Shown in pieces: positions 1,797 through 43,602 of a stretch of DNA of 43,856 nt. Made by a program: the position numbers and the translations under genes. The stretch is from assembly GCA_020350885.1 (NCBI GenBank), contig CP070727.1, forward strand, positions 622,686 to 666,541, written 5' to 3'. The stretch is from a bacterium. GTDB taxonomy: Bacteria; Krumholzibacteriota; Krumholzibacteriia; Krumholzibacteriales; Krumholzibacteriaceae. Within the stretch, counting starts at the first letter, position 1, and the number at the start of each line of letters is the position of its first letter. Below the pieces are notes generated by a model that saw only the letters and a list, made by a program, of their open reading frames with translations, searched no databases and was not told the DNA's origin.

Positions 1797-2082
1797 TAAG
1801 GCGGATGACATTTACAGAAGGCACACCGGAAACTTCATCCATATGAACAAGAAGAGCTGCTGCGCTGAAACCTTTCAAGGCAGAATTATATTTTTATATA
1901 TCTGTTAAACAGTTCGGGTATGCGAGGATAGCTTCGTCTTTTGCACAAGCCATTGTTTACTATTGGGTTATACTAAATATTGCTTGACAGCAGTGATTGT
2001 TACAAGTTACGCTTTCCCTATCGATTTTCTACAGCGATAATAAGGGGCTTCATCAGATCAAAGTTTAAACAGGAGGTCAGCC
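1797..2082. other. Intergenic region upstream of the metallopeptidase
   Basis: No gene is visible. Two weak promoter candidates point toward the gene at 2083: a TATACT box at 1969-1974 without a good -35, and TTGACA at 1984-1989 followed 18 nt later by TACGCT (2008-2013). A strong ribosome binding site, AGGAGGT at 2071-2077, precedes the ATG at 2083. Confidence 0.35.
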
Positions 2083-4611: not shown

Positions 4612-4674
4612 AATTCCACAAGTTCAGATGTAAAACTTGCTGTTCACAGCTTCGGAATAAGTGTACACATCGTT

Positions 4675-4692
4675 ACCGTCAGCGCTGACGGT
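4675..4692. repeat. 18-bp perfect palindrome
   Basis: ACCGTCAGC is followed directly by its reverse complement GCTGACGGT, about 63 bp after the metallopeptidase stop codon. There is no spacer and no T-tract, so it is not a normal intrinsic terminator. It could be a protein binding site or the stem of a weak hairpin. Confidence 0.6.
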
Positions 4693-4889
4693 TAATTGAC
4701 CTAGCCTATCTCTTCTGTTAATGCTGTCCCACATAAATTTATAAGACTAATTAACTGATCGAGTGAGCAAGAGGAAAATCCGGTAATCGTAACGGGGAAG
4801 GTCAGATAGAACATCTTCTTTCCTAGATAGTACACAAATTTTCACACTGATTTTTATATTACCGATCAACGAAAGGTGTTGGTTAAGAA

Positions 4890-8958: not shown

Positions 8959-9088
8959 GTTTATTTATCATTCTATTACACTGCATTTAGCAGCTCTAAC
9001 CCTTGACAGACAAAGAATTATTTAGAATATTAGAGAATCTTTACGTGAGTTGCATATATCGTTTTCAGAGTTGTCTAGGCATGGGCCG

Positions 9089-9475
9089 ATGAAATTATTG
9101 GCTACATTAGCGATACAAGCATTCATCACATTCCAGGTGGTGTGCATTTCGCACTGCCACGATGTGGGGCATTACTCTGAACATCATCACCGTTCAATTT
9201 GGAATTGGAGTGCTCATGGCAGTGAACATCACCAAACTGAGCACGAGGATAAAGGTAACTCCTTTGCCTGCTTGCACAAACACCACAGTATCGATCAATC
9301 CCTTGCTCCTAAAAAGCTTACGTTCTCGTGGCCGGAGGTCGCTGTCGATTTTATAGCGAGCACTACCAATATTACCGCATCGTTCACGACGGAAAGCACC
9401 TTCGTCGGCCGAGCTATTTCGCTCGTAGATCAGTACGGATTCACATTCATCGGCAGAAGTCCTACTATCTCCTAA
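9089..9475 (+). CDS. Small His-rich exported protein ahead of metal-efflux genes
   Basis: I chose the ATG at 9089 over the upstream TTG at 9050 because it places a signal peptide (MKLLATLAIQAFITFQVV) at the N-terminus; neither start has a strong ribosome binding site. The 128-residue product has a cluster of His and Cys just after the signal peptide ('CISHCHDVGHYSEHHH') and a second one ('CLHKHHS'). This suggests a periplasmic metal-binding or metal-sensing accessory, in the style of the small CzcI-like proteins that open some efflux operons; homology to CzcI is not demonstrable by eye. The three RND efflux genes follow on the same strand. TTGACA at 9003-9008 could be the -35 element, but no convincing -10 sits 16-18 nt later. 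Confidence 0.65.
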   Translation: MKLLATLAIQAFITFQVVCISHCHDVGHYSEHHHRSIWNWSAHGSEHHQTEHEDKGNSFACLHKHHSIDQSLAPKKLTFSWPEVAVDFIASTTNITASFTTESTFVGRAISLVDQYGFTFIGRSPTIS

Positions 9476-9598
9476 CAGCATTTCTCGATCTCTACCAGCA
9501 AATCATCAATCACAGCGAGGTCTGTGAGAGTTGTCTCACAATCGCTATACAACGGCATGTATCGATGCATGCATTGCCGATAATGCGGAGAGGATATA

Positions 9599-10858
9599 GT
9601 GTTTCGTAAATTAATATGCATTGTGTTGTTGTCCGTTATGCCGCACGGCTATGGGGTCGCGGCTGAGATTTCAATAAGGTTCGAGGACATAGGGGATTAC
9701 GCGCTGGCCAACAGTCCACATGCAAAAATTCTGGAGAAGGATCTAGATTTCATTAGAGCGGATAGGGACGCCTCGCTTCGGTGGTCTAATCCTGAGTTAC
9801 TGTATGAATTAGAGCAGGTTAAAAGTGGTTCAGAATCTCTGCGTGAGTATAGCGTGCTGCTTGAAAAGGAATTTGCGATGCCGTGGATAACAACTCGTAA
9901 CAGGGCCGGATGGAATCTCAGACTCGAAGCTGCCCGACACACAAAAACCGCCCAAACCTGGCATCTGCTTTCAATGCTTCGCCGCGGATACGTTGAATTG
10001 AAGATATACGAGAGGGAGATGGATTATCTCGAAGAGTTCGAGTTACTGATGGAACGTGCCTCCAAGATCTCTGGTGCAAGAAAGCTGGAAGGCACCATAT
10101 CTGGAATGGAACAGCATCTGATAGAGATGTCCTTGCTCGGGATCCGCAGGCGAATCCACGGAATCCGCACGGAATATAGAACCTTATTGGCTGAATGGAA
10201 GATCGAAATGGGCATTCCTGCCGAGGATGGCGTCAGGCTCGAGACTGAGATGGTGTTCAAACAAAAATTCCCAGATTCAAGTTTAAAGAGTGTTTCGGAG
10301 AAAGACGAAACTGCTGATCTGCTAGGGAGGCGGCTCAGCACCGAAGCTCTCGGCAAAAGCTTGCAGATGGAAAAGGGAGGCCTACTTCCGTCAGTGACAA
10401 TCACCGGTGGGTATAAAAATGCCGAAGACACATTCGAGGGATTTGTAGTCGGACTCAAGATGCCAATACCGCTACTGAACCGAAACACGGGTCAAGTGGA
10501 AAGGGTGAGAACCGAGTATGTCAAAGCGAAGATGCAACTTGATCTTTACCAATCCGAACGAAGACGCCGTATACATCTTCTCATAGAGAATGCTGAGGAG
10601 AAGTCTGGGTTGTTGGGAAGATATAGCGAGAAGATGGAAAAGATCGACGGACATATCGAGGATCTCGTCGAGTCGTACAGTGAAGGCTGGCTAACCTTGG
10701 CCGGGTTGCTCGAAGGGATTGAAATATACACAGACGGGATCGAGAACTATTTTGGACTTCTCGGAGAATATTTCGCGGCCATCTTCGAGCTCGAGACGCT
10801 CACCGAGCGAGAACTCGTAAACTCCGCTCTGGCGGAGGGGGAGGCTATCGAACAATGA
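9599..10858 (+). CDS. TolC-family outer-membrane efflux factor (CusC/CzcC-like)
   Basis: The 419-residue protein starts at a GTG (9599) preceded by GAGAGG and has a short signal peptide. Two related alpha-helical halves follow, with the alternating polar coiled-coil character of outer-membrane efflux channels; each half contains a 'NPEL' or 'LPSVTITGGY' type strand entry. It would form the outer-membrane exit duct of an RND tripartite pump. Its stop overlaps the ATG of the adaptor gene by 4 nt (ATGA), so the two are translationally coupled. Length is normal for the CzcC group. Substrate specificity cannot be read from this subunit. Confidence 0.85.
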   Translation: MFRKLICIVLLSVMPHGYGVAAEISIRFEDIGDYALANSPHAKILEKDLDFIRADRDASLRWSNPELLYELEQVKSGSESLREYSVLLEKEFAMPWITTRNRAGWNLRLEAARHTKTAQTWHLLSMLRRGYVELKIYEREMDYLEEFELLMERASKISGARKLEGTISGMEQHLIEMSLLGIRRRIHGIRTEYRTLLAEWKIEMGIPAEDGVRLETEMVFKQKFPDSSLKSVSEKDETADLLGRRLSTEALGKSLQMEKGGLLPSVTITGGYKNAEDTFEGFVVGLKMPIPLLNRNTGQVERVRTEYVKAKMQLDLYQSERRRRIHLLIENAEEKSGLLGRYSEKMEKIDGHIEDLVESYSEGWLTLAGLLEGIEIYTDGIENYFGLLGEYFAAIFELETLTERELVNSALAEGEAIEQ

Positions 10859-12426
10859 GACCGAACTTAAAGTTCTTTATTCTATTCACCGTAATGCTGC
10901 TCTTTTCATGTGCTGCGGATGACCATGGAGTATCTGAGGAAGAACACGGGCATGAGGACCATACGGCAGCCGTCACCATGTGGAGCGATTCACTCGAGCT
11001 GTTCATGGAGTATGGACATTTGATCGTTGGCCAAAAGACGGAGTTTGTTGTGCATCTGACTAGGCTTGCTGACTTTGGCCCGCTCAACGAGGGTAATGTT
11101 ACGGTGCAACTCGATGACGGCAGTGGAGAAGGGTTGGAAGTCACTTCCGAGGCGCCTCTTCGAAAGGGCATCTGGAAGGTTGAAGTACCGGTCTCAAAGG
11201 CCGGGGAATACCATCTTCGCATCATCTGCCGGACACCCATATTATCCGAGGTGTTCGAAATCGGACACGTCAAAGCCTGGGCGACGTTAGAGGATCTGGA
11301 GCTTGCCGAGGGCCACTCCGAGGAGATTGTTGATCATGGGCACGATGAAGCCGATCATGAAGGCGGTGAAGGGGGGATCACCTTCCTCAAGGAACAGCAG
11401 TGGAACACCGAGTTTGGTGTCGAGCCGGTGCGCTTGGTGACCATGCATTCGTCAATTCCTGCCATTGCCGAAGTCCTGCCGAGACAACAAGGTTATGCCG
11501 ATGTTGTCACACCCGTGGAAGGATTTATCAACGTGCTTCATAACCAGGACATGGCTACACCGGGCAGGAGGGTTGAATCCGGTGAGCGTCTCCTTGCTGT
11601 CTGTCCTCCGCTCGAGGGAACAGGATCGTGGACTGAGAGACATCTTGGTTACATGAGAGCAAAGAGAGAGTTCGAGCGTGCAGAAAGGCTACTTCAGCGC
11701 GATGCAATCGCAAAACGTGATTATGAGGAGATACGTCAGAAATACCTCGTGGAAAGATCGAGTTACGAGATGATACTCAAGGGGAGTTCTGCAGAGCCGG
11801 TAGAGGTCGAAGAAACGGGTGAGGTGCATCTCGAGCTAAAGGCTCCCATTAGCGGGATCGTTTCTGTGGTTGACGTTGTTCCCGGGCAGACTATTACGGC
11901 TGGGCAGAAATTGATGACAATCATCGATCCAGCTGCAGTATGGCTGCGAGCAAGTCTTTTCGAGAGGGATTATTACAGGATTGGAAACCCGGAGGGTGCA
12001 ATGATCGTAATCCCGGGCCGCGACGCTTCATTGCTGATCGGGAAGAACGATCTAAAGATCGTCAGCAAAGGTGAGCTATTCGACCGCTCCAGCAGAACGA
12101 TACCGATTATCTTCGAAACTGACAATCCCGGCGGTTTGCTCAAGATCGGGCAGATCGTGCAGATGGAGATATACACTTCCGAAGCTATCAATTCTATTGC
12201 AGTACGGGAAGAATGTATCATCGATGAAGACTACGTTACATATGTGTTCGTGCAGATCGGTGGCGAATCTTTCGAGAAAAGACTAGTTAAAACAGGAGCT
12301 CGCGCGCGGGGCATGGTCGCTATCCTCGAAGGGCTCACCGAAGACGAGCGGGTAGTGACGATTGGAGCTTATAGTGTGAAGCTCGCCTCAACGTCGAAGG
12401 ATATCGGGCACCCACACGTACACTAA
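10855..12426 (+). CDS. RND efflux periplasmic adaptor, metal type (CusB/CzcB-like)
   Basis: The 523-residue adaptor starts at the ATG overlapping the previous stop. A signal sequence ends at 'LLFSC', so C19 is probably lipidated. The N-terminal extension is rich in His and acidic residues ('DDHGVSEEEHGHEDH'); a second His/Asp cluster ('VDHGHDEADHEGG') sits just before the adaptor core, and both look like metal-binding segments. The core has the usual order: beta-barrel/lipoyl half ('VEGFINVLHNQ'), an alpha-hairpin (about 265-310) and the second lipoyl half ('LKAPISGIVSVVDVVPGQ'), then the membrane-proximal domain. It links the inner-membrane pump to the outer-membrane factor. The His clusters argue for a metal substrate, but which metal is not decided. 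Confidence 0.85.
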   Translation: MRPNLKFFILFTVMLLFSCAADDHGVSEEEHGHEDHTAAVTMWSDSLELFMEYGHLIVGQKTEFVVHLTRLADFGPLNEGNVTVQLDDGSGEGLEVTSEAPLRKGIWKVEVPVSKAGEYHLRIICRTPILSEVFEIGHVKAWATLEDLELAEGHSEEIVDHGHDEADHEGGEGGITFLKEQQWNTEFGVEPVRLVTMHSSIPAIAEVLPRQQGYADVVTPVEGFINVLHNQDMATPGRRVESGERLLAVCPPLEGTGSWTERHLGYMRAKREFERAERLLQRDAIAKRDYEEIRQKYLVERSSYEMILKGSSAEPVEVEETGEVHLELKAPISGIVSVVDVVPGQTITAGQKLMTIIDPAAVWLRASLFERDYYRIGNPEGAMIVIPGRDASLLIGKNDLKIVSKGELFDRSSRTIPIIFETDNPGGLLKIGQIVQMEIYTSEAINSIAVREECIIDEDYVTYVFVQIGGESFEKRLVKTGARARGMVAILEGLTEDERVVTIGAYSVKLASTSKDIGHPHVH

Positions 12427-12457
12427 AGAAAAACGGTTTCATGAATAGAGGAGTACA

Positions 12458-15400
12458 ATGCTCGACTACATGATGAGAAAGAGTTTGACCAACAGGTCTG
12501 TTGTCCTGATTGGTGCGGTAATTTTACTCGCCGCCGGAATAGTGGTCGCTCTACGTATGCCGATAGATGTGTTTCCTGATCTCACTGCTCCAACCGTTAC
12601 TGTCATGACTGAAGCTCACGGAATGGCTCCCGAAGAGGTAGAGATGCTCGTCAGTTTTCCGATCGAGGCGGCAGTTAATGGAGCCTCCGGGGTCAGGCGT
12701 GTGCGATCGACTTCGATCCAAGGCTTCTCCACCGTCCATGTGGAGTTCGACTGGGGAATGGATATTTACAAGGCCAGGCAGATCGTGAATGAAAAGCTTC
12801 AGGGAGTGTGGGCTTCTTTACCCGAGGAAGTTGATCAGCCAATGCTCGCTCCGGTCACATCGCTCATGGGTGAGATTATGGCAGTCGGTCTTACGTCTTC
12901 GAAGACATCACTGATGGACTTGCGCACATTGGCTGATTTCACGATTCGTAAGAGGCTTCTCGCGGTACCGGGTGTGGCGAGTGTCAAGGTATACGGTGGC
13001 GAAGTAAAACAGTACCAGGTGCTCATCGATCCTCATTTGCTGAGAAAATACGAGATCGGTTTGAGCGAAGTCCTCAATGCAGCAGGTGGCTCAAACGTCA
13101 ACGCGAGCGGTGGATTCTTTATTCACTCGGGACAGGAATACTTAATCAGGGGACTCGGCCGCATCCGCGATATAGAGGAACTCAAGAAAACGGTCGTGGC
13201 GACACGGAGCGATGTACCGGTCCTCCTGCAGGACGTTGCGCGGATTACAACTGGTGCAGCGACCAAGCTCGGCGAAGCGGCCATCAACATGGAGAAAGGG
13301 GTTTTGCTGGTTATCACCAAGCAGCCCGGCGCAAATACGCTCGAGCTAACGCGCCAACTCGATTCCGTTCTCGATGAGATAGACAAAGCCATGCCGGCGG
13401 ATGTGCAATTGCACACAGAGATATTCAAGCAATCCGATTTTATCCAACGTGCGGTGAACAACGTCATACATGCGCTACGAGACGGGGCCATCCTGGTCGT
13501 GATAATTCTCTTCGTATTTCTTGCAAATATCCGGACCACTTTGATCTCTGTTCTGGCGATACCGCTGTCTCTCGTGTTCGCCATTCTGATACTGAGGTTA
13601 CTCGGGCTTTCAGTCAACACGATGACTCTCGGAGGTATGGCGATCGCGATCGGCGTGCTGGTCGATGACGCTATAATCTATGTCGAGAACGTCCTTCGCA
13701 GGGTGCGGCAAAATGTAGATACGGATTTAAAGACGAGAAAACCATTTTTCGATGTCGTTATCGCCGCCTCGTCAGAGATCAGGGCTCCCATTGCAAATGC
13801 TACGTTCATAATCATTGTGGTTTTTATACCGTTATTCTTTCTCAGTGGTATTGAGGGCCGTATGCTCAAGCCGCTCGGTATAGCATATGCGGTCTCTGTG
13901 TTCGCCTCGCTTCTCGTGGCGGTCGTGGTTTCTCCCGCCTTGTGTGGACATCTCTTATGGCGGATCGATTTGAAAAGAGAGAGAGAAAGCTTTGTCGTCC
14001 GTAAGTTGAAGGCACTCTATAGCCCCGTTCTCGAATGGAGCACGAGGCACGGCAAGCCGATCATGATAGGTGCGGCTGTTCTCGTTATTCTGACCGTAAC
14101 GATGTTAGCCAATCTGGGAAGATCTTTTCTTCCTGAATTCAACGAGGGCACTCTCAATATCAGTATCGCTACTGTTCCCGGAACATCCCTGGAGGAATCC
14201 GACCGGATTGGAGATATGGCCGAACGGCTCCTCCTTGATCATTCATCGGTTGTGTCGGTCGCAAGGCGGACGGGACGCACAAAGCATGATGAGCATTCGC
14301 TCGGTTCACATGCGCATGAGGTCGAAGTCACACTTGCCGATGACATAGACAAGGAGAAAGTGTTGGAAGATATACGGGAAAGGCTGGGATTGCTACCCGG
14401 GACGATTTTTATCATAGGTCAGCCGATCAGCCATCGAATCGATCACATGCTTTCCGGCACGAGAGCCAACATTGCGGTAAAGGTTTTTGGACCGGATCTC
14501 GCGAGACTGAGGTCGATCTCCGCCGATATCAAAGAGGTAATGGAAGAGGTCGAGGGAGTCACCGATCTCTCAGTCGATCAGCAGGTGGACATCCCACAGG
14601 TGAGAATCCGGGCAAACCGTGAAAAGATGGCCTTATATGGTCTTACGATGATGGAGTTGGATGAGTTAATAGATGTGGCGTTTCTCGGCGCTGTAGTGTC
14701 CGAGGTGTATGATGGGCAGAACCGGCACGAGCTCGTGGTAAGGTACGACGAGGAATTTCGTGGTGATCTCGAGTCGATCAAGGAGAGTCTGATTGATACG
14801 CCTTCGGGAGCGGTCGTTCCGCTCGACATGGTAGCCGATATACGGATCGATCGAGGGCCAAACTATATCAGCCGTGAGAACGTCCAGCGAAAGATCGTCG
14901 TGCAGGCTAACGTGAAAGGCCGTGACATGAGCGGTGTAGTCGAGGACATACGGGAGGGTGTCACGGCGAACGTCGACCTGCCCGAGGGCTATTTCGTCCA
15001 GTACGGAGGCCAGTTCGAAAGCGCCGAGTCTGCCTCGAGGATAATCAGCCTCCTGAGCCTCCTATCACTCGTGCTGATTGTCGTCGCTCTCAATCTGGAG
15101 TTCGGTAACTTGAGGGACACGCTACTCGTTCTTGTCAACCTTCCGCTCGCCCTCATTGGGGGAGTGCTGGCCGTTGTGATCACAGGAGGCGTTCTCAATA
15201 TTGCCTCGATGGTCGGATTCATTACGTTGTTCGGTATCTCGGTGCGAAACGGGATTATGATGGTTTCCCATTACAATCACTTGATGAGTGTTGAGGGCCT
15301 GGGGCGCCGCGAGGCGGTTCAAAAAGGTTCCCTCGAGCGGCTCAGCCCCATCCTGATGACCGCCCTGACTACAGGCCTCGCACTGTTGCCGATGGCTCTG

Positions 15401-15541
15401 GCTTCGGGAAAGCCGGGAAACGAGATCCAGGCGCCGATGTCGATAGTGATTCTCGGGGGGCTGCTCACGGCCACGTTGCTCAACATGATCGTTATCCCGG
15501 TGCTGTTCCACAGATACGGAAAGGGGGACGTGCGCGCCTGA
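12458..15541 (+). CDS. RND efflux permease, CzcA/CusA-like
   Basis: The 1027-residue inner-membrane pump starts 31 nt after the adaptor gene behind a GAGGAG site. Its N-terminal region carries the heavy-metal RND signature 'PIDVFPDLTAPTVTVMTEA' and 'MAPEEVEMLVSFPIEAAVNG'. There are twelve predicted membrane helices around two large periplasmic loops. The fourth helix reads 'AIAIGVLVDDAIIYVEN' with D403, D404 and E410. The paired Asp is like the proton relay of drug pumps such as AcrB, whereas classical CzcA has a DFG-type motif and CusA a single Asp. A loop segment 'KHDEHSLGSHAHEVEV' is His-rich. The operon's two His-rich partners favour transition-metal export (Cu/Ag, Zn, Co or similar), proton-driven. 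Specificity remains open. Confidence 0.88.
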   Translation: MLDYMMRKSLTNRSVVLIGAVILLAAGIVVALRMPIDVFPDLTAPTVTVMTEAHGMAPEEVEMLVSFPIEAAVNGASGVRRVRSTSIQGFSTVHVEFDWGMDIYKARQIVNEKLQGVWASLPEEVDQPMLAPVTSLMGEIMAVGLTSSKTSLMDLRTLADFTIRKRLLAVPGVASVKVYGGEVKQYQVLIDPHLLRKYEIGLSEVLNAAGGSNVNASGGFFIHSGQEYLIRGLGRIRDIEELKKTVVATRSDVPVLLQDVARITTGAATKLGEAAINMEKGVLLVITKQPGANTLELTRQLDSVLDEIDKAMPADVQLHTEIFKQSDFIQRAVNNVIHALRDGAILVVIILFVFLANIRTTLISVLAIPLSLVFAILILRLLGLSVNTMTLGGMAIAIGVLVDDAIIYVENVLRRVRQNVDTDLKTRKPFFDVVIAASSEIRAPIANATFIIIVVFIPLFFLSGIEGRMLKPLGIAYAVSVFASLLVAVVVSPALCGHLLWRIDLKRERESFVVRKLKALYSPVLEWSTRHGKPIMIGAAVLVILTVTMLANLGRSFLPEFNEGTLNISIATVPGTSLEESDRIGDMAERLLLDHSSVVSVARRTGRTKHDEHSLGSHAHEVEVTLADDIDKEKVLEDIRERLGLLPGTIFIIGQPISHRIDHMLSGTRANIAVKVFGPDLARLRSISADIKEVMEEVEGVTDLSVDQQVDIPQVRIRANREKMALYGLTMMELDELIDVAFLGAVVSEVYDGQNRHELVVRYDEEFRGDLESIKESLIDTPSGAVVPLDMVADIRIDRGPNYISRENVQRKIVVQANVKGRDMSGVVEDIREGVTANVDLPEGYFVQYGGQFESAESASRIISLLSLLSLVLIVVALNLEFGNLRDTLLVLVNLPLALIGGVLAVVITGGVLNIASMVGFITLFGISVRNGIMMVSHYNHLMSVEGLGRREAVQKGSLERLSPILMTALTTGLALLPMALASGKPGNEIQAPMSIVILGGLLTATLLNMIVIPVLFHRYGKGDVRA

Positions 15542-15959: not shown

Positions 15960-16169
15960 GTGCCGAGTGTTGCTATCAGAGCGGACGGGAAAAAATATAT
16001 GTGGGACAGAGGAGAGTATTCTACGGAGGCTGAAGCCGAAGAAAAAAAGGCCCAGTATCAGAAAGATGATTTTGAAGTTGTTCAACTAGTTGAAGAGGGA
16101 AAGCATCTGCTCTACACACGAAGAGTTGTGACTGAAATCGTGTTGGAGGAAGGAGATCGGCCGTTATGA
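15960..16169 (+). CDS. Small conserved-looking protein of unknown function
   Basis: The 69-residue frame starts at a GTG (15960) behind a good GGGAGGT site and overlaps the next ATG by 4 nt (ATGA at 16166-16169), so translation is coupled to the HdrA-like gene. It is charged, mostly soluble and has no Cys: 'MPSVAIRADGKKYMWDRGEY', then an acidic/lysine helix, then 'LLYTRRVVTEIVLEEG'. I do not recognise the family. Its position inside the operon suggests an accessory or small subunit of the Hdr-like complex. Confidence 0.7.
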   Translation: MPSVAIRADGKKYMWDRGEYSTEAEAEEKKAQYQKDDFEVVQLVEEGKHLLYTRRVVTEIVLEEGDRPL

Positions 16170-18706
16170 AGGGATCAGTGCTAGTCATTGGAGCCGGTCC
16201 CGCAGGCATGCGTGCTGCTGCCGAACTTGTCCAACAGGGATTCAAGGTCTTTCTTGTCGAGGAGAAACCCACCATCGGTGGGAAAATGGCCCAGATCGAT
16301 AAAATGTATCCATCGGATGAGTGTTCAACATGCACCATACTGCCGCGCATGCTGGAACTCACCAGCAATCCCGATAACATTACCATTATGGCCTTCTCTG
16401 AGGTGACAGGTATCGATGGAAGCGCCGGAGATTTTACTGTCAAGGTGACAAAGAAATCGAGATATGTCGATACGGCCAAATGCAACGCCTGTACGGATTG
16501 TTTTCCTGTATGTCCAGTTGGCCTCGTTCCCATGGAATTCAACTATGGCAGAAGCGTCTCGAAGGCCATTTCGTTTTACGCCCCCTTTCCGCCGAGAAAG
16601 GCGATTATTTATCCTGAAAAATGCGATTATCTCCTTAAGGGGAAATGTGGGGACGAAGATCAACCTCCATGTGTAAAGGCATGTGAGGCCGAGGCCATCG
16701 ATTTCAATCAAAAACCCCAGAAAGTGGAATTGCATGTCGGAGCGGTCATCCTGGCTACGGGCAGGATGGAGGACACGAAGGATGCCACGGAAAAATGTGG
16801 ATACGGCAGATATCCCAACATACTCACTGCGCTCGAGTATGAACGTCTCCTCTCTGGACTCGGTCCTACGGGAGGCGTTGTAAAACGTGATGACGGGAAA
16901 GAACCCCAATCGGTGGCTTGGATGGTTATCGATAGCTCCTCATCTGTTTCGTTTTTATCCGCGGTCTCAGAGGCGCTGGGAACCTTGGAGAAAAACCCGG
17001 AAGCCACGGTATCCATCTTGTACGAGAATATTAATCTTCAGAGAGAATCCTACAATGAATTCTATCAAGCGGCAAAGGACAAGCACATCAATTTCATTCA
17101 GACGGATTATATTTCCGTTACCGAAGGGGAGGAAGGGAATATTGCGATTACCTATAGCCAGGGAGGCAAGTCCGATAACCTTCTCAATGTGGAGATGTTT
17201 GTCCTGGCAACACCGCTTGTCCCCGGCTCCAGCACATATGAGCTTGCCGATAGGATCGGAATCGAGATGGATGAAGCGGGATTCTTCCGGAAAAAATCCG
17301 GGGAAATACATCCTCTTCTAACCTTGCGCGATGGAATTTTTGTCTGTGGGAGCATTCAGGAATCAAAGGGAATTGACGACGCTGTTGTTCAGTCGTGTGC
17401 GGCTGCAGCGAACGCCGCCGCCCATTTGGCGCAGGAACGGCATCAGGAAACAAAATCGCCACCGGAGAGGGAATTATTGGCCGTCGAGCCAGAAGATGAA
17501 CCGTCTGTTGCCGTTGTTGTGTGCCGTTGTGGATTGAATATCGCCGGGCTCCTGGACCTCGATGAGCTCGTGCAGTATACCGAGTCACTGCCGCACGTTA
17601 AAAGTGTTGAGGTCACGCCTTTCGGCTGCGATGGTGTGAAGATCAAAGAGCTCCTCAAGAGCAAGAAATACAACAGATTGGTCCTGGGGGCCTGCTCACC
17701 GAGAACCCACGAATCGTTATTCCAGATTCGTGCCGAAACGGGCGGTCTGAACCGTTACCTGGTGGAGATCGTCAACCTGCGCAATCACTGTACGTGGGTT
17801 CATTCAAAGGATAAGACGGGAGCAACCAGCAAGGCGAAGAAGCTCATGAAGATGGGTGTCAATCGTGCTGCGTTACTGGAGCCATTGGATGATATAAAAG
17901 TACCGGTCACTTCGAGTGCACTTGTCGTAGGCGGCACGCCGAGCGGCATTGCATGTTCCTTGAAGCTTGCACAGATGGGATTTCAGGTTCATCTGGCGGA
18001 AAGCAAAAGCAGCTTGAGTAATATAAAAAACAACGACAGTCCCTACGTGAAATCTCTCATAGATGAACTCGAAAAATACGAAAAGGTTACGATCCACACT
18101 GAAACGAAGATAGCCGGTGTCGAGGGATTTGTGGGCAACTACAAGGCAAGTCTTGTCAATTCAAATGGGAATGTGGATATCGGCTCCGTCGTTATAGCGA
18201 CGAACGCGGACATGAAATCGGATGCTGCGGAAGGTGATTATGAGAAGGATTTGCTTCTTTCCAGAGATGATCAGAACCTCTTCATCGGAATGCTCGGCAT
18301 TTTGAACCCGCAGGATTTCAATACGGAAGGTGTATTCAGATGTGGTTCGGCGCGTTCGGAGATGGGCATGCTCGAAGCGATCATAGACGGAGAGGGCGCC
18401 GCATCGCGTGTGGCGGGTGTGATCTCTAAAGATGAATTGACCAAATCTCCAATGGTATCAGTTGTTGTGGATGAGAACTGTGATGGTTGCGCATACTGCA
18501 TAGAACCTTGTCCGGCACAGGCATTAACGCTTATTGAATACATATTGCATGACGGAACTATCAAAAAAACGGTCGATAACAACGATGCAATTTGCAGGGG
18601 ATGTGGAATATGCATGGCGACATGCCCGAAGGTTGGCATCTACGTCAAGAATTTCAAAACCGACCACTTTAATACGATGATTCAGTCCTTAGGGGAGGTA
18701 GAGTAG
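16166..18706 (+). CDS. Tandem HdrA-like flavin/iron-sulfur protein (QmoA/QmoB-like fusion)
   Basis: The 846-residue cytoplasmic electron-transfer protein is built from two HdrA-like units. Unit 1 (about 1-430) has an FAD Rossmann motif ('VLVIGAGPAGMRAA'), the HdrA-type pair C53/C56 ('CSTCTILPRM'), a [4Fe-4S] motif C106-C109-C112-C116, and a looser second cluster motif C153, C161, C169, C173. Unit 2 begins near 445 with the domain that normally opens HdrA ('VVVCRCGLNIAG', 'GACSPRTHESLF', 'NLRNHCTWVHS'). It continues with a second, degenerate nucleotide-binding fold ('VVGGTPSGIA') and ends in a two-cluster ferredoxin (about 768-846: 'CDGCAYCIEPCP', 'CRGCGICMATCP'). Known HdrA proteins take part in flavin-based electron bifurcation, and QmoA/QmoB in sulfate reducers pass electrons to sulfur enzymes. 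The partner gene is MvhD-like; no HdrB, HdrC or QmoC is seen here. Confidence 0.85.
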   Translation: MKGSVLVIGAGPAGMRAAAELVQQGFKVFLVEEKPTIGGKMAQIDKMYPSDECSTCTILPRMLELTSNPDNITIMAFSEVTGIDGSAGDFTVKVTKKSRYVDTAKCNACTDCFPVCPVGLVPMEFNYGRSVSKAISFYAPFPPRKAIIYPEKCDYLLKGKCGDEDQPPCVKACEAEAIDFNQKPQKVELHVGAVILATGRMEDTKDATEKCGYGRYPNILTALEYERLLSGLGPTGGVVKRDDGKEPQSVAWMVIDSSSSVSFLSAVSEALGTLEKNPEATVSILYENINLQRESYNEFYQAAKDKHINFIQTDYISVTEGEEGNIAITYSQGGKSDNLLNVEMFVLATPLVPGSSTYELADRIGIEMDEAGFFRKKSGEIHPLLTLRDGIFVCGSIQESKGIDDAVVQSCAAAANAAAHLAQERHQETKSPPERELLAVEPEDEPSVAVVVCRCGLNIAGLLDLDELVQYTESLPHVKSVEVTPFGCDGVKIKELLKSKKYNRLVLGACSPRTHESLFQIRAETGGLNRYLVEIVNLRNHCTWVHSKDKTGATSKAKKLMKMGVNRAALLEPLDDIKVPVTSSALVVGGTPSGIACSLKLAQMGFQVHLAESKSSLSNIKNNDSPYVKSLIDELEKYEKVTIHTETKIAGVEGFVGNYKASLVNSNGNVDIGSVVIATNADMKSDAAEGDYEKDLLLSRDDQNLFIGMLGILNPQDFNTEGVFRCGSARSEMGMLEAIIDGEGAASRVAGVISKDELTKSPMVSVVVDENCDGCAYCIEPCPAQALTLIEYILHDGTIKKTVDNNDAICRGCGICMATCPKVGIYVKNFKTDHFNTMIQSLGEVE

Positions 18707-18707
18707 G

Positions 18708-19127
18708 ATGGCAGAGAATTTCGAACCCGTTATTCTCACTTTTTGCTGCAATTGGTGCTCTTATGCGGCCGCCGATGCAGCCGGCACCGCACGAATACAA
18801 TATCCACCGAATGTATTAATCATTCGTGCCATGTGTTCCGGGATGGTTCATCCGAATTTCGTTATAGATGCACTTACACAGGGACATGTTGATGGAGTTC
18901 TTGTCTGTGGATGCCATCCGGGCGACTGTCACTATGTGGATGGCAATAAAAGGGCGGAGGCGCGGGCGGAAGCCATACAGCTCATGCTGGAAGATTTCGG
19001 TTTGGAAGAGGAACGTTTCCGGCTGGAGTGGATCTCGGCATCGGAAGGGCCGAAGTTCGCGCGGATTGCAGAGGAAATGACAAAAACGCTTGTCGAATTG
19101 GGGCCAAATCCGTATAGAAGCAGTTAG
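18708..19127 (+). CDS. MvhD-like [2Fe-2S] electron-transfer subunit
   Basis: The 139-residue protein starts 1 nt after the HdrA-like stop, with GGAGGT at 18694-18699. It matches the MvhD/hydrogenase iron-sulfur subunit family: 'LTFCCNWCSYAAADAAG' (C13, C14, C17), 'RAMCSGMV' (C43) and 'VCGCHPGDCHY' (C67, C69, C74). These cysteines bind a [2Fe-2S] cluster that passes electrons from a hydrogenase or other dehydrogenase to HdrA. In QmoB and some HdrA proteins this domain is fused at the C-terminus; here it is a separate last gene, so the pair reconstitutes a Qmo/HdrA-MvhD unit. The electron donor is not encoded in the window. Confidence 0.9.
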   Translation: MAENFEPVILTFCCNWCSYAAADAAGTARIQYPPNVLIIRAMCSGMVHPNFVIDALTQGHVDGVLVCGCHPGDCHYVDGNKRAEARAEAIQLMLEDFGLEEERFRLEWISASEGPKFARIAEEMTKTLVELGPNPYRSS

Positions 19128-20963: not shown

Positions 20964-21965
20964 GTGCCTTCCCCAACTGCTCAAGATCGTTCTACCATGA
21001 TCATCACTGATATGGAAGACTTCACCGATTCCTTCGTAAAGGACGTCGATAATGGATTGAATGATATACCCAAGCATATTCCATGCGTCTATTTTTATGA
21101 CTATACGGGTTCAATACTTTTCGAAAAAATCTGTCAGTTGCCCGAATATTATTTGACACAGGCCGAAACGGAGATACTCGAAAGCCAATCAAAAAGAATC
21201 ATTACGACCCTTCCCGATAATGTCATGCTCGTGGAGCTGGGCAGCGGTAGCTCCGTCAAGACACGCTTGATCATCGAGGCATTACTGAGTAAATCCGACA
21301 AACTATCATACAGTCCAATCGATATCTCTCGAAAGATGCTTCATGAAAGTTCGATTTCACTATTGGAAAGATATGATAATTTGGAAATCATTTCAGTAGC
21401 CGCTACGTATGAAGAAGGGCTGCGAAAGCTCACTATATTCAATGAACAGGCAAAGCTCATTCTCTGGTTGGGCTCCAGCATCGGTAATTTCAGACCGGCA
21501 GAGGCATCTCGTTTTCTCGGTAATATCGCTGCAACCATGAAGCCGGAAGATTGCTTGCTTATCGGTTTCGATCTTGTCAAAGAGAAGAGGATTTTGGAGA
21601 AAGCTTACAACGACAGCCAAAATGTGACTGCGGAATTCAATTTGAACCTCCTGTCCAGGATCAATCGAGAGTTGGGGGGTGAATTTGATCTCGGCAGGTT
21701 TACGCACCAGGCGCTCTATAACGAAGAGGAACGCAGAATCGAGATGTATCTGATTAGTAATTGCGAGCAGAATGTCTATATCTCCGCCATGAACCGGTCT
21801 TATCACTTTGGGATAAACGAAATGGTACACACAGAAAATTCCTGTAAGTATTCCCCAGAAGCCATTGGGAAGATAGCAAACCGGGCCGGGTTGCAGATAC
21901 TCGAACAATGGTTTGATTCACGACACTATTTCAATTTGACATTATTCAAACCCGACAATCGGTAA
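20964..21965 (+). CDS. egtD: L-histidine N-alpha-methyltransferase (EgtD), makes hercynine
   Basis: The 333-residue protein matches EgtD, which uses three SAM to trimethylate histidine to hercynine (trimethylhistidine), the first step of ergothioneine synthesis. The SAM site is 'MLVELGSGSSVKTRLI', followed by 'YSPIDISRKML'. The family motif 'LWLGSSIGNFRPAEA' and the substrate-domain segments 'VTAEFNLNLLSRINRELGG' and 'RIEMYLIS' are present. Start: GTG at 20964 has GGAG about 9 nt upstream, while the ATG at 20997 has none. The length fits EgtD (about 320). The fused Mo/desulfurase gene begins 26 nt later on the same strand and is predicted to carry out the sulfur step, so the two form a minimal ergothioneine operon without EgtB, EgtC or EgtE. 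Confidence 0.92.
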   Translation: MPSPTAQDRSTMIITDMEDFTDSFVKDVDNGLNDIPKHIPCVYFYDYTGSILFEKICQLPEYYLTQAETEILESQSKRIITTLPDNVMLVELGSGSSVKTRLIIEALLSKSDKLSYSPIDISRKMLHESSISLLERYDNLEIISVAATYEEGLRKLTIFNEQAKLILWLGSSIGNFRPAEASRFLGNIAATMKPEDCLLIGFDLVKEKRILEKAYNDSQNVTAEFNLNLLSRINRELGGEFDLGRFTHQALYNEEERRIEMYLISNCEQNVYISAMNRSYHFGINEMVHTENSCKYSPEAIGKIANRAGLQILEQWFDSRHYFNLTLFKPDNR

Positions 21966-21991
21966 CGGTTGTCGGCACTACCGGGGTCACT

Positions 21992-24900
21992 GTGGCTAAG
22001 TCGAAAAAGCAAAAAGAGAAACACGCAATATGTGGGATCTGTAGCACCGGCTGCTGGGTTGTTGTTTCCTTGGATGAGAGGGGCAGAATCATCGGTGTCA
22101 GGGCCGACGAAGGGACACCGATGGGAAGCTTATGTGAATTGGGAAAGCACTCACCTGACATCGTCTATTCCGAAAACCGCCTCCTCTATCCCTTAAAGAG
22201 AAAGGGCAAGAAGGGGACATACGAATTCGAGCGTATATCATGGGACGAGGCATATGACACCATTGCCGGCAAACTGACGGCAATAAAGGAGAGATACGGT
22301 GCGGAGGCTACAGCCATCTACACCGGCGTGGGCAGTTTCGAACTATCTATGTGCGATGTGTACCAGCCAAAAGGCGTTGCGATATCCTCGGCAAGCAGTG
22401 TGCTGTTTCCCTTCGGTTCTCCAAATACCATGGGCGTCGGAGCGCTGTGCTACGTAGCCTACGGTATGATCGCACCCCACCTCACCATGGGGCGCATGTA
22501 CATGAACATGTTCTCGGAGATAGAGAATGCCGAGCTCATAATTGTGTGGGGTGCCAATCCTGCAACGGATCTTCCGCCCATCGACATGAAAAGAATTCTC
22601 GAAGCACGGGAGCGAGGAGCGGAGGTCGTGGTTATAGATCCCAGAAAAACAGCAACCGTAAAGCTGACCGGCGGTCAATGGATTCCGATACGTCCCGGCA
22701 CCGACGGTGCCCTCGCCCTGGGATTGATCCAAGTTTTAATAGAGGAAGAGTTATACGACGAATCCTTTGTCGAGAACTGGACGACCGGCTTCGAGGACCT
22801 GGTGCAGTACGTGCAGCATTTCCGTCCTGAAGTCGTCGAACACATCACCGGTGTACCGGCACAAACGGTTACCGCCCTGGCCAGAAAGATGGCGGAGGCC
22901 AGGGGTGTTTCCCAGCTCATGTACACCGGTTTGGAGTTCAGCAACAGCGGTGTACAAAACATTCGTGCAACCCTGGTTCTCTGGGCCCTCGCCGGACAAC
23001 TCGATGTCCCCGGCGGACTCTGTTTCTCGATGGATGGCAATCAGTTTCCCATTAACCGGGACGGCCTCATTGCCAATCCCGACACGGGAACGAGGCTCGG
23101 GCGGGACAAGTTTCCCGTATACATCAAATACCGTGATGAGGCCCATGCAATAGCCCTGCCTGGATCTGTATTAGACGGAGAACCCTACAAGATCAGGGCC
23201 CTTATCATATTGGGCGGCTCGATGATCACCTCGTGGCCCAATCCGTCCATTTGGAAAAGTACGATGAACGAGCTGGACTTTCTGGTGACCATAGACAGGA
23301 AGCTTACGGCTGATTCCGCCTATGCGGATATCGTACTGCCGGCAACGACCTATTATGAAAATGTCTCCTACATGACGTATGGCTCCACCTTTCGTATTCG
23401 GGAACGGGTGATTGAGCCGCTGGGTGAGGCACGGAATGATTTCTTTATTATTTCTGAGCTGGCGAAACGGCTGGGATACGGCCATCTGTACCCGCAGACA
23501 GAGGAAGAGTTATTGCGGTATGTTTTAAAAGGGTCGGGATTTGCATTGGAAGATGTAAAGGCGGAAGGCGGCATCGTTTCGATAGAGACGGAGATGATGC
23601 AATACAAGAAATGGGAGAAGGGCTTACTGCGACCCGATGGGAGCCCCGGATTCGATACGCCTTCCGGCAAGTTCGAAATCGCTTCGTCTATTCTGGATGA
23701 GTTTGGTTATGAGCCTCTTCCCAAATATACCGAGCCGAGTGAAGGACCGCTGTCACAGCCGGAATTACTCAAAGACTTCCCGCTTGTATTCAATTCGGGG
23801 AGCAGGATGAGAACCAGTGTCCACACGCAGCATCACGACATACAGGAATTGAACGAGGAACGGCCTGAGCCTGCGGTAACGATCAATATCGGTGATGCAT
23901 CTGCAAGGGGGATACAAAACGGAGATAAGGTGATGATAAAAAGCCCGAGAGGTTCGGTCGTCATGCGGGCCATTGTCACAGAGGATATCGTCGAGGGGGC
24001 CATCGATGCCAATCATGCCGGCGGTGGTCCCATCGGACCGGAAGCCTGGCAGGAAAGCAATATCAATGTACTGACCGACCTGGATAACTTTGATCCCATT
24101 TCAGGCTTTCCCGTTTACAAATCGCTATTGTGTGATGTCGTCAAGCTGGATGATGACAGCGCCTCACTGATCATGGGTTCCGGCGAAATGAGACAGGATG
24201 AAATCCCAATGAGACAGGATCCTGCTCCCCCAGGTACCATCTATTTGGATCATAACGCGACAACCCCCATCGCACATGATGTCAAACAAGTTATGCAGGA
24301 AATGATGGATCTTTACGGCAATCCGTCGAGCATCCACCGGGAAGGAAAAAAATCGAGAAGGATCATCGAAGAAGCACGCCGCAAGGTGGCTCAGCAGATC
24401 AATTGCACAACAAAAAGGATTGTATTCACCGGATGCGGTTCGGAATCGAATAATATGGCTATAAAGGGTGTCGCTTTTACCAATTGGGGAAAGAGGAATC
24501 ATATCGTTACCTCGAGTATCGAACACCCGGCGGTTCTGAACACCTGTAGATGGCTTGAAAAATATAACATCGAAGTGACCTATCTCGACGTCGATGAAAC
24601 GGGGCTCGTTGATCCGGATGAATTCAAAAAAGCTATAACGGATCGTACCTGTCTGGCGACGGTCATGCTCGCAAATAATGAAACCGGGACCATTCAATCC
24701 GTTAGAGAGCTGGTTGACATTGCAAAGGGGAGGAATGTTCTCTTTCATACGGATGCCGTACAGGCTGTAGGGAAGATAGCTGTGGATGTGGAAGAATTGG
24801 GAGTGGATTTGTTGACCGTTTCAGCTCATAAGCTGTACGGCCCGAAAGGAGTCGGGGCACTGTATGTTCGTAAGGAGGTCCCCATGGATAGTTTGATTCA

Positions 24901-25387
24901 TGGGGGTGATCAGGAGCGGGGGCTGCGCTCAGGAACAGAAGATGTGATAAAAATAGCGGGTTTCGGGAAAGCCATGGAACATGTACCGGAATACCTGGAA
25001 GAGATGAGCGGTATTGAAAGACTTCGTGATCGCCTGGAGGCGGGTATCCAGGAAATCATTCACGATTATCGTCTTAACGGTAATAGAAGCCGTCGACTGC
25101 CAAACACCTTGAATGTGACATTGCCCGGTTTGCGTGGTGAGTCGATAGTGCTCGAAATGGACCGGCGGGGCGTTTGCTTTTCATCCGGATCGGCATGCCA
25201 TTCCGGTTCCCCTGAACCTTCCCATGCCCTGATGGCAATGGGACTCACGGAAGAGGAGGCCCACTGCTCGTTGCGATTCTCCTTGGGCCATGATACCAGC
25301 GAGGAAGACATCAAACGGGCCATTGCATTATTGAAGGAAGTCGTCGAACAGTCGAAAAATATAGTGCGTTTCGTTTCATGTAAATAA
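21992..25387 (+). CDS. Metallopterin oxidoreductase-cysteine desulfurase fusion; probable O2-independent ergothioneine synthase
   Basis: The 1131-residue fusion starts at a GTG 26 nt after egtD. Module 1 (about 1-710) belongs to the bis-molybdopterin DMSO-reductase superfamily. It has a [4Fe-4S] motif C14-x2-C17-x3-C21...C48, the pterin-binding body ('IIVWGANPATDLPP', 'VVIDPRKTATVKLTGG') and a C-terminal molydopterin-binding domain (about 597-706). C153 ('GVGALCYVAYG') is the likely Mo/W ligand. Module 2 (about 749-1125) is a NifS/IscS-type cysteine desulfurase with H845, D921, PLP-lysine K947 ('SAHKLYGPKGVG') and persulfide cysteine C1069 ('SSGSACHSGS'). I recall that Caldithrix abyssi has a metallopterin-dependent ergothioneine synthase of this layout, with an acetylene-hydratase-related module 1. 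With egtD alongside, the inferred reaction moves cysteine sulfur onto hercynine C2. No signal peptide, hence cytoplasmic. Confidence 0.85.
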   Translation: MAKSKKQKEKHAICGICSTGCWVVVSLDERGRIIGVRADEGTPMGSLCELGKHSPDIVYSENRLLYPLKRKGKKGTYEFERISWDEAYDTIAGKLTAIKERYGAEATAIYTGVGSFELSMCDVYQPKGVAISSASSVLFPFGSPNTMGVGALCYVAYGMIAPHLTMGRMYMNMFSEIENAELIIVWGANPATDLPPIDMKRILEARERGAEVVVIDPRKTATVKLTGGQWIPIRPGTDGALALGLIQVLIEEELYDESFVENWTTGFEDLVQYVQHFRPEVVEHITGVPAQTVTALARKMAEARGVSQLMYTGLEFSNSGVQNIRATLVLWALAGQLDVPGGLCFSMDGNQFPINRDGLIANPDTGTRLGRDKFPVYIKYRDEAHAIALPGSVLDGEPYKIRALIILGGSMITSWPNPSIWKSTMNELDFLVTIDRKLTADSAYADIVLPATTYYENVSYMTYGSTFRIRERVIEPLGEARNDFFIISELAKRLGYGHLYPQTEEELLRYVLKGSGFALEDVKAEGGIVSIETEMMQYKKWEKGLLRPDGSPGFDTPSGKFEIASSILDEFGYEPLPKYTEPSEGPLSQPELLKDFPLVFNSGSRMRTSVHTQHHDIQELNEERPEPAVTINIGDASARGIQNGDKVMIKSPRGSVVMRAIVTEDIVEGAIDANHAGGGPIGPEAWQESNINVLTDLDNFDPISGFPVYKSLLCDVVKLDDDSASLIMGSGEMRQDEIPMRQDPAPPGTIYLDHNATTPIAHDVKQVMQEMMDLYGNPSSIHREGKKSRRIIEEARRKVAQQINCTTKRIVFTGCGSESNNMAIKGVAFTNWGKRNHIVTSSIEHPAVLNTCRWLEKYNIEVTYLDVDETGLVDPDEFKKAITDRTCLATVMLANNETGTIQSVRELVDIAKGRNVLFHTDAVQAVGKIAVDVEELGVDLLTVSAHKLYGPKGVGALYVRKEVPMDSLIHGGDQERGLRSGTEDVIKIAGFGKAMEHVPEYLEEMSGIERLRDRLEAGIQEIIHDYRLNGNRSRRLPNTLNVTLPGLRGESIVLEMDRRGVCFSSGSACHSGSPEPSHALMAMGLTEEEAHCSLRFSLGHDTSEEDIKRAIALLKEVVEQSKNIVRFVSCK
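24188..24220 (+). repeat. Duplicated 12-bp sequence in the inter-module linker
   Basis: ATGAGACAGGAT occurs at 24188-24199 and again at 24209-24220, a 21-bp period that keeps frame and yields 'MRQDEIPMRQDP' in the linker between the metallopterin and desulfurase modules. It lies about 15 bp before the desulfurase domain begins, so it may mark the fusion junction. Confidence 0.7.
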
Positions 25388-41298: not shown

Positions 41299-43602
41299 AT
41301 GAGAAGAATTCGTATCGTAACAATGTTTGTTGCGCTCGGCTGCCTCATGACTGCAGCAGTACTACCCATTCCGGCAGAGGGGATGATCAACCGGATTGAG
41401 ACGGTTGTCCGGTCCGGCAAGTACCGGATCATCCCATCGGATGACGGACAGAGAATCGTTATGGATGGATTTGGCTGCCGGATGGAGCCCGGCAGACCGA
41501 TGCTTCCGGAGAAGGAGGTCTTGCTTGCACTGCCTCCCGGCGCCCGGGTTCGTCGTGTGGAGGCTCACGGCATTGCGGGAACTCTCTTGTCTGGTACATA
41601 CCGGCTCGCACCGGCCCCGCCGATGGTGCCGCTGGCCGAGCCACAGCACTGCCGGGAGCTTACGGCCAAGATGGCGCGCGAGTGGCAGGAGAATAATGCA
41701 GCTGCCTATTCGACGGATGCCGCATATCCGGATGAAGCCGTAAGAATCACCGGCTCGGGATCGCTCAGAAAGTACGCCTATGCATCCGTCTCCGTGTGCC
41801 CGTTCACCTACCGTCCGCTGTCGGGTAGGCTGACGTGCTACGATGCCGTCCTGATAGCCGTCCACTTCGACGTACCGTCCCCGGGTTCCGCTCGGGCCGA
41901 AGAGATCGATGCGCTCATGTGCGAACGTACGGCCGATAGCAAGGCATCGGAGCTGTTCATCAACTACGAGGAGATGAAGGATCTCTATCAAAGGGAACAA
42001 TCGATCACCGAGCTCCCTGCGCAAATATACGACTACGTGATCATCACAACAGATACCCTCGCCGTTGCCGTCGCTTCTACCAACTTCATCGCCTGGAAGA
42101 GCGCCCTGGGATACAGTGTACGGACCGTTCTGATAACCGATCCTGAGATCACCGGCCAGCCGGGGAGCGATCTGGCCGAACAGATACGTAATTTCCTCAG
42201 AAGCTACTACGGATCATGGGGCATACAGTACGTGCTCTTCGTCGGTGACTACGCAACCGTGCCGATGCGCTACTGCTATCCAGACCCAAACGATCATACA
42301 CACAATCCCGGTAATTCCGGAAACCCCGGCGGTTCCGTTCCAACAGACTGTTATTACGCCGATCTCTCCCTACCCGATGCCGATTCCTGGGACTCGGACG
42401 GCGACGGATACCTCGGTGAGTACCTCCAGGATAATCCCGATTTCCTCGCCGAGGTCTACGTGGGCCGCATTCCCACAAGCGATATAGCCAGGATCACGTA
42501 TGCCCTTGAAAAGCTGGTCGTTTTCGAATGGGACGAGGGAGCATGGAAGAGCCATGCCCTCCAGCCCGGTACGATTCTATTCTATGAAAACCAGGATTTC
42601 AGCGGTTATCCGAAGATCGATGGATCCACACTCCTGAACGAGATCGAGACGAACCTCATGAGCGGCTGGACCGTGAGCCACTACACCGAACAAGATGGCA
42701 TCGATCCTTCGAGCTTTCCGTGGCCAGCGGTGAGCCTGGCCGCCTTCATAGACGATTGGCGGACAGGACAGTACGGGGTCGTCAACTGGTCCGGCCACGG
42801 TGCCCCCTATGGAGTTGGCCGGACCGTATGGGAATGGGATGATGGTGACGGTGTTCCGGAGACCGACGGCTCGGACGGTTGGGGCCAGCCGATGCTCATC
42901 GATATATGGTGTAATCTCGATGACGATTTTCCGTCTATTGTCTTCGCCGTTTCCTGCAATGTGGGATATCCCGAGCCCAACGGTGTGGGGAACCTGGGTA
43001 TCGATCTGCTGACCGAACCCGGATTCGGCGCCTCCGCAGGGATCGTGAGCGCCACACGTCCCGCATGGATCTCGGCGGATGTTATCACAAATCCAGGCGG
43101 AGCGGAGTCCATCTGCTACGAGTTCAACCGTTACGGGATCACTGAAAATGAGAGGCTGGGCGAGGCCCTCTATGACGCCAAGTACTACTGCTATACTAAT
43201 TACGGCTGGGACCATTATGCCGAACACATCAACCAGTGCAACTTCAACCTGTACGGTGACCCTTCTCTGTTGAGGGTGGGTATTACCACCGCCGTGGAAA
43301 ACGGAGTCCATGCAGATGTCCCGGGGCCTGCCCTTCTTATGCAGAACTATCCCAATCCCTTCAATCCGACGACGGTGATACGGTTCGATCTGCGGCGGGC
43401 GACGCATGTGAAGCTCTGTGTCTACAATGTGAAGGGTGAGCTGGTGGCCACACTCGTAGACGATTCCCTGGATGCAGGGGCGAAAGCGATCTGCTGGAAC
43501 GGGAAAGATGACAGGGGCAACTCCGTTGCCAGCGGAATGTACTTCTATCGCCTCGTTGCAGGGGATTACGCGCAGACGAAGAAGATGGTGCTTCTGAGGT
43601 AG
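41299..43602 (+). CDS. Gingipain-type C25 cysteine peptidase with sorting tail
   Basis: The 767-residue protein begins with a signal peptide (about 1-27) and a propeptide-like region (about 28-230). The C25 caspase-like catalytic domain (about 235-660) has the dyad H500 ('NWSGHGAPYG') and C553 ('FAVSCNVGYPE'), followed by 'ASAGIVSATRPAW'. Acidic Asp/Gly-rich stretches ('DADSWDSDGDGYLG', 'WDDGDGVPETDGSDG') probably bind calcium. The C-terminal ~85 residues ('LLMQNYPNPFNPTTVIRF' to 'TKKMVLLR') are the FlgD-like/type IX-type sorting domain, closely related to that of the repeat protein at 25.6-28.1 kb. It is therefore a secreted or surface endopeptidase. A shadow frame covers much of the opposite strand and is not a gene. 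Confidence 0.88.
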   Translation: MRRIRIVTMFVALGCLMTAAVLPIPAEGMINRIETVVRSGKYRIIPSDDGQRIVMDGFGCRMEPGRPMLPEKEVLLALPPGARVRRVEAHGIAGTLLSGTYRLAPAPPMVPLAEPQHCRELTAKMAREWQENNAAAYSTDAAYPDEAVRITGSGSLRKYAYASVSVCPFTYRPLSGRLTCYDAVLIAVHFDVPSPGSARAEEIDALMCERTADSKASELFINYEEMKDLYQREQSITELPAQIYDYVIITTDTLAVAVASTNFIAWKSALGYSVRTVLITDPEITGQPGSDLAEQIRNFLRSYYGSWGIQYVLFVGDYATVPMRYCYPDPNDHTHNPGNSGNPGGSVPTDCYYADLSLPDADSWDSDGDGYLGEYLQDNPDFLAEVYVGRIPTSDIARITYALEKLVVFEWDEGAWKSHALQPGTILFYENQDFSGYPKIDGSTLLNEIETNLMSGWTVSHYTEQDGIDPSSFPWPAVSLAAFIDDWRTGQYGVVNWSGHGAPYGVGRTVWEWDDGDGVPETDGSDGWGQPMLIDIWCNLDDDFPSIVFAVSCNVGYPEPNGVGNLGIDLLTEPGFGASAGIVSATRPAWISADVITNPGGAESICYEFNRYGITENERLGEALYDAKYYCYTNYGWDHYAEHINQCNFNLYGDPSLLRVGITTAVENGVHADVPGPALLMQNYPNPFNPTTVIRFDLRRATHVKLCVYNVKGELVATLVDDSLDAGAKAICWNGKDDRGNSVASGMYFYRLVAGDYAQTKKMVLLR

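Follow-up and report, generated by a model that had tools for sequence, protein, structure and literature searches.

Two adjacent genes in a 43,856-nucleotide stretch of DNA (the window; G000:C1:622686-666541) raise the question of whether their bacterial host can synthesize ergothioneine without oxygen. The window is part of a 4.13 Mb single-contig genome that is estimated to be 91.7% complete. A preliminary description had proposed that an EgtD and a fusion of a metallopterin enzyme with a cysteine desulfurase form a two-gene pathway in this window. Based on conserved residues, homologues, and gene neighbourhoods, we consider it highly probable (approximately 0.93) that the two gene products together would convert histidine and cysteine to ergothioneine in an oxygen-independent manner.

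Both reading frames lie on the forward strand with the lengths and spacing originally claimed. The first, egtD (20964..21965; GTG start), encodes a 333-residue protein whose domain models and residues are those of a histidine N-alpha-trimethyltransferase. Following a 26-bp spacer (21966..21991), the second (21992..25387) encodes an 1131-residue protein which domains, homologues, and alignment identify as a metallopterin-dependent ergothioneine synthase (MES). A domain search detected Molybdopterin, Molydop_binding, and Aminotran_5 in this protein, i.e. both modules in one chain. Module 1 (residues 1-718 using the borders of the Caldithrix abyssi enzyme; 21992..24145) is a bis-MGD module of the DMSO reductase family with acetylene hydratase as its nearest solved relative, and module 2 (about residues 746-1131; 24227..25384) is, by domains and structural matches, a NifS/IscS-type cysteine desulfurase. 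At 43.6%, the GC content of egtD is below that of the MES gene (51.4%) and of the window (49.5%).

The egtD product scored 358 bits against Methyltransf_33 and 355.7 bits against the EgtD equivalog TIGR03438 (cut-off 290.9 bits), its best solved relatives are histidine methyltransferases, and a profile search identified it as the only EgtD in the genome. Seven residues which we take to line the substrate site of Mycobacterium smegmatis EgtD (Y39, Y56, N166, Y206, M252, E282, and S284) are all identical in the window protein. The M. smegmatis enzyme (PDB 4pim and others) and the window EgtD thus share their equivalog and their substrate residues, but differ in their partner, which is EgtB in M. 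smegmatis and MES in the window.

The MES class was described in 2022 from C. abyssi with the same two-module layout (PMC9516567), and the C. abyssi synthase that had been cited in the preliminary description is therefore real and organized as stated there. According to the main text of that paper, the C. abyssi enzyme contains four Fe-S cysteines (C14, C17, C21, and C48), a metal ligand (C153), a PLP lysine (K952), and two relay cysteines (C1074 and C1135), as well as C1097, a conserved cysteine that is dispensable at the cost of a two-fold loss (PMC9516567). All nine of these cysteine and lysine positions are found in the window protein, at residues 14, 17, 21, 48, 153, 947, 1069, 1092, and 1130. 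By alignment, the Fe4S4 cysteine codons span 22031..22135, the predicted Mo/W ligand C153 (also aligned with acetylene hydratase) lies at 22448..22450, the PLP lysine K947 (C. abyssi K952) at 24830..24832, the first persulfide cysteine C1069 (C. abyssi C1074) at 25196..25198, C1092 (C. abyssi C1097) at 25265..25267, and the tail cysteine C1130 (C. abyssi C1135, essential there) at 25379..25381. The residues that had been listed previously (C14, C17, C21, C48, C153, H845, D921, K947, and C1069) are all where they were said to be; C1092 and C1130 were absent from that list.

Residue conservation was determined across 138 aligned rows, window included, which comprise 120 best-listed homologues and 18 loci (L006 was dropped beforehand, being the same locus as L051). 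Among rows reaching the respective position, K947 is present in 135 of 135, C1069 and C1130 each in 133 of 133, C14, C17, and C21 in 130 of 130, and C48 in 134 of 134. C1092 is conserved in 129 of 133 rows and C153 in 136 of 137, the exception (L058) having a frame that is broken upstream. Two additional cysteines of module 1 are nearly invariant: C121 (22352..22354), found in 136 of 137 rows with L058 again as the exception, and C714 at the end of the module (24131..24133), found in 137 of 138 rows and replaced by alanine in one homologue. The tail cysteine is missing in all six stand-alone desulfurases examined, three of which are from the window's own genome and three from relatives.

Homologues among the matches listed (n=119, window aside) are 64-79% identical to the window protein, 117 of them over at least 96% of its length, and the fusion is therefore not a product of chance. 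One of the loci, L049 (class of a Calditrichaeota MAG), encodes a 1136-residue protein which matches the C. abyssi numbering exactly when aligned residue for residue, and which is 64.5% identical to the window MES; judged by this numbering, it is either the C. abyssi enzyme itself or a close relative thereof. In a tree without an outgroup, in which the tested MES are represented by this numbering match only, the window protein falls among MES homologues including L049. By residues and identity, then, the window fusion is a further member of the published MES class, and MES is widespread. It shares with the C. abyssi enzyme and the three other tested MES, as these are presented in the main text (PMC9516567), the modules, Fe-S cysteines, C153, PLP lysine, both relay cysteines, and an EgtD in the genome. 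It differs from the C. abyssi MES by an offset of -5 in the numbering of its desulfurase residues, by an EgtD encoded directly upstream, and by its host phylum, probably Krumholzibacteriota, which bears out the suggestion that this member is phylum-distant. The phylum was judged from RpoB: among the 120 best-listed relatives, 14 carry organism names, eight of them Krumholzibacteria or similar, five Latescibacteria or similar, and one Bacteroidales. Searches of titles and abstract openings found no MES study beyond PMC9516567 and reviews, and nothing was found in the literature that joins ergothioneine with Krumholzibacteri- names.

Given that module 1 is a member of the DMSO reductase family and that desulfurases do sulfurate molybdenum cofactors, the fusion could alternatively represent an acetylene hydratase, formate dehydrogenase, or polysulfide reductase whose attached desulfurase sulfurates the cofactor only once. 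The best solved match of module 1 is indeed acetylene hydratase (241.7 bits), ahead of thiosulfate/polysulfide reductase (214.8 bits) and formate dehydrogenases (187.7 bits or less). A Foldseek search using the AlphaFold model (mean pLDDT 88.6, pTM 0.80) also placed acetylene hydratase first (E 1.8e-53); the VIA-align matches listed cover module 2 only, and a MES chain was absent among the 60 PDB matches listed. Against this, the window protein lies deep within the MES family, with MES proteins elsewhere reaching 2118 bits and 79% identity among the matches listed, and module 1 is accordingly nearer to the MES clade than to formate dehydrogenases or polysulfide reductase. The acetylene hydratase of Syntrophotalea (Pelobacter) acetylenica (PDB 2e7z) has a cysteine metal ligand aligned with C153, but a desulfurase module is found only in the window protein, and Asp13, which we take to be the catalytic residue of the hydratase, aligns with S18, a position occupied by serine, proline, or alanine in 37 tree rows. 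Similarly, the Cys/Sec and subsequent His that presumably lie at the metal of formate dehydrogenases correspond to C153-Y154, with tyrosine in 136 of 137 rows. Taken together, these data make a conventional molybdenum enzyme very improbable and favour a MES.

In C. abyssi, MES displays desulfurase activity, requires both relay cysteines, transfers sulfur within the chain, and exchanges sulfur reversibly at its metal site, as described in the main text of PMC9516567. In the window, EgtD would, given its family and conserved residues, trimethylate histidine to hercynine. By analogy with the C. abyssi work, the desulfurase module of MES would then withdraw sulfur from cysteine using PLP on K947, carry it as a persulfide first on C1069 and then on C1130, the predicted second persulfide station, and, without leaving the chain, pass it to the bis-MGD metal coordinated by C153, from where a metal sulfido group would sulfurise C2 of the hercynine ring. 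The route put forward in the preliminary description led from a C1069 persulfide to the metal centre; C1069 is retained as a station, whereas the route as a whole is incomplete, as C. abyssi C1135 (here C1130) is also essential (PMC9516567). The geometry of the relay is unreadable from the AlphaFold model because pLDDT is below 50 at residues 151-160, 1068-1073, and 1127-1131, which are the loops containing C153, C1069, and C1130. Their near-invariance makes C121 and C714, neither of which is mentioned in the main text of PMC9516567, candidate relay stations and simple mutational targets.

The genome encodes a single MES, remaining matches spanning one module only. The absence of EgtB and EanB, which had been noted for the vicinity of the genes, extends to the whole genome in profile searches. 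No EgtB match exceeded the cut-off (best 60.8 vs 360 bits), using a model that gave none over cut-off in 14 control genomes but did so in 6 of the 80 genomes of the phylum, and the rhodanese model revealed no EanB-like rhodanese, the three rhodanese stretches detected belonging to a metallo-beta-lactamase/rhodanese protein and a 194-residue frame. Both are unlike EanB, which would be expected as a rhodanese-only protein of about 430-460 residues encoded beside EgtD. EanB, a rhodanese-type ergothioneine synthase of unrelated fold, catalyzes the same overall reaction as MES without O2 (PMC9516567). Genes for molybdenum cofactor synthesis are clustered at 2.158-2.166 Mb and encode MoeA, a MobA-like domain, MoaC, a MOSC/MoCF_biosynth protein, and a MoaA-like protein. 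No MoaA exceeded the cut-off in the genome (best 248 vs 284 bits, 266 residues), which we count against the proposed reading. In the second half of this 266-residue MoaA-like protein (L046:7519-8319, reverse strand), approximately 45 family-model positions are missing, and the cluster is otherwise ordinary.

Of the 80 genomes of the phylum, four carry MES: the window's, G036, G123, and G125 (the latter copy being cut off near a contig end). It was not found in the remaining 19 genomes of the host family. A copy that has decayed or lost its function would be compatible with such sporadic occurrence and with the short MoaA, but neither frame is truncated and no catalytic residue is missing, and we attach next to no weight to decay. 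EgtD matches were obtained in 12 of the 80 genomes (10 over cut-off) and include all four MES carriers, compared with 8 of 76 others (Fisher p 0.0003, kinship ignored); restricting the comparison to EgtD over cut-off gives 3 of 4 vs 7 of 76 (p 0.005, kinship likewise ignored).

This co-occurrence bears on a further alternative, in which the sulfur acceptor of a MES-family fusion is another imidazole or heterocycle and the adjacency of EgtD has a different cause. Substrate specificity is not readable from sequence, and the substrate-site residues of module 1 are not provided by any of the 60 PDB matches listed. The egtD and MES genes are, however, separated by only 26 bp and share a strand. Among the 40 best MES rows, at least 13 more share a contig with EgtD (judged by equal longest-contig sizes), and EgtD directly accompanies MES in four loci (Aminicenantes, Actinomycetota, Nitrospiraceae, and Chloroflexota). 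Furthermore, ergothioneine was produced in vivo by four MES, originating from C. abyssi, Ca. Abyssubacteria, a euryarchaeote, and a vent metagenome, according to the main text of PMC9516567, and at least that of C. abyssi belongs to the same family. A different substrate is thus improbable, and hercynine is the predicted one.

To place the gene pair, a quick MES tree with a simple model was calculated from 39 rows (20 of the 120 best-listed homologues and 19 loci; L058, with its broken frame, was left out). The window belongs to a set of 15 rows (support 100) that also contains Gemmatimonadota, Aminicenantes, Actinomycetota, and Chloroflexota rows, and G036, G123, and G125 group with Calditrichaeota-class rows; forcing the four carriers of the phylum together was rejected (p-AU 6e-61). 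In a 25-row EgtD tree, the window EgtD joins seven EgtDs (support 98/98) on contigs equal in size to MES contigs, and a single clade for the EgtDs of the phylum was again rejected (p-AU 4e-5). Because both trees join the window to other phyla and apart from the other MES carriers of its own phylum, EgtD and MES were likely acquired horizontally, and the grouping with EgtDs apparently from MES contigs, together with the MES tree, suggests that the pair likely moved as a unit. The metallopterin route extends into an uncultured phylum, in which it occurs sporadically and to which gene transfer likely brought it as an EgtD-MES pair. In the four loci named above, EgtD follows MES and is just 36-43% identical to the window EgtD, compared with 61-73% for MES; given this reversed order and the distant EgtD, both partners and gene order have been reshuffled. 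EgtD is not next to MES in G036 or in the Calditrichaeota MAG, where it occupies another part of the genome.

The sulfur step varies among the 12 EgtD-containing genomes of the phylum: MES was assigned in three, EgtB in five, an EanB-type protein in two (a count covering the six genomes on which the rhodanese model was run), MES plus EgtB in one, and none was found in one. The six genomes with EgtB over cut-off comprise the five that have EgtD without MES, plus G125. In G125, EgtB and EgtD are adjacent (G125:C143:22672-24880) and the MES gene runs to the contig end (G125:C176:2151-3881), which we count against the proposed reading of the window pair and which indicates either two sulfur routes or contamination. 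The genome with no assignment, G086, encodes an EgtD over cut-off (G086:C48:98875-99774; L092), with no MES or EgtB match in the genome and no rhodanese match beside EgtD. In G020 and G022, both from the order of the window's host, a 434-residue rhodanese-only protein is encoded directly adjoining EgtD (L089, G020:C2:47000-55000, 1185-4734; L090, G022:C179, 328-1632). The two rhodanese proteins are 72% identical, and that of G020 matches the sulfurtransferases 6ktv and 6h98 in the PDB, which we take to be EanB, at 615 bits. A SufS-type desulfurase gene comes next after the pair in G020, and these EanB-type and SufS-type genes are possibly an unfused counterpart of the MES arrangement.

The presence of three unrelated known routes of hercynine sulfurisation within 80 genomes of one phylum is new, and makes the published question of why this step was reinvented testable among near relatives. 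A broader proposal, which we regard as tentative and rather unlikely in its entirety, combines a longer relay, in which the mobile tail cysteine C1130 would pass sulfur to the metal by way of a module 1 cysteine (C714, located where the modules meet, or C121), with a sulfur step that is swapped around a standing EgtD, such that MES, EgtB, and EanB-type proteins replace one another between related genomes. MES would have been acquired on at least two occasions, in the window's host together with its own EgtD. If such replacement occurs, the choice of sulfur step may follow exposure to oxygen and not ancestry.

Other genes in the window include those for an HdrA-like flavoprotein and, subsequently, an MvhD/VhuD-like protein of the FlpD family (16166-19127), which suggest anaerobic electron transfer. 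At 9050-15541, a CusA/CzcA-family RND pump that scores over its model cut-off is accompanied by a CzcB-like adaptor, a protein of outer-membrane type, and a small His-rich ORF, which together likely form a heavy-metal efflux cluster. At 41299-43602, a gingipain-type C25 peptidase domain is combined with a C-terminal sorting-like domain, by family an ordinary secreted peptidase.
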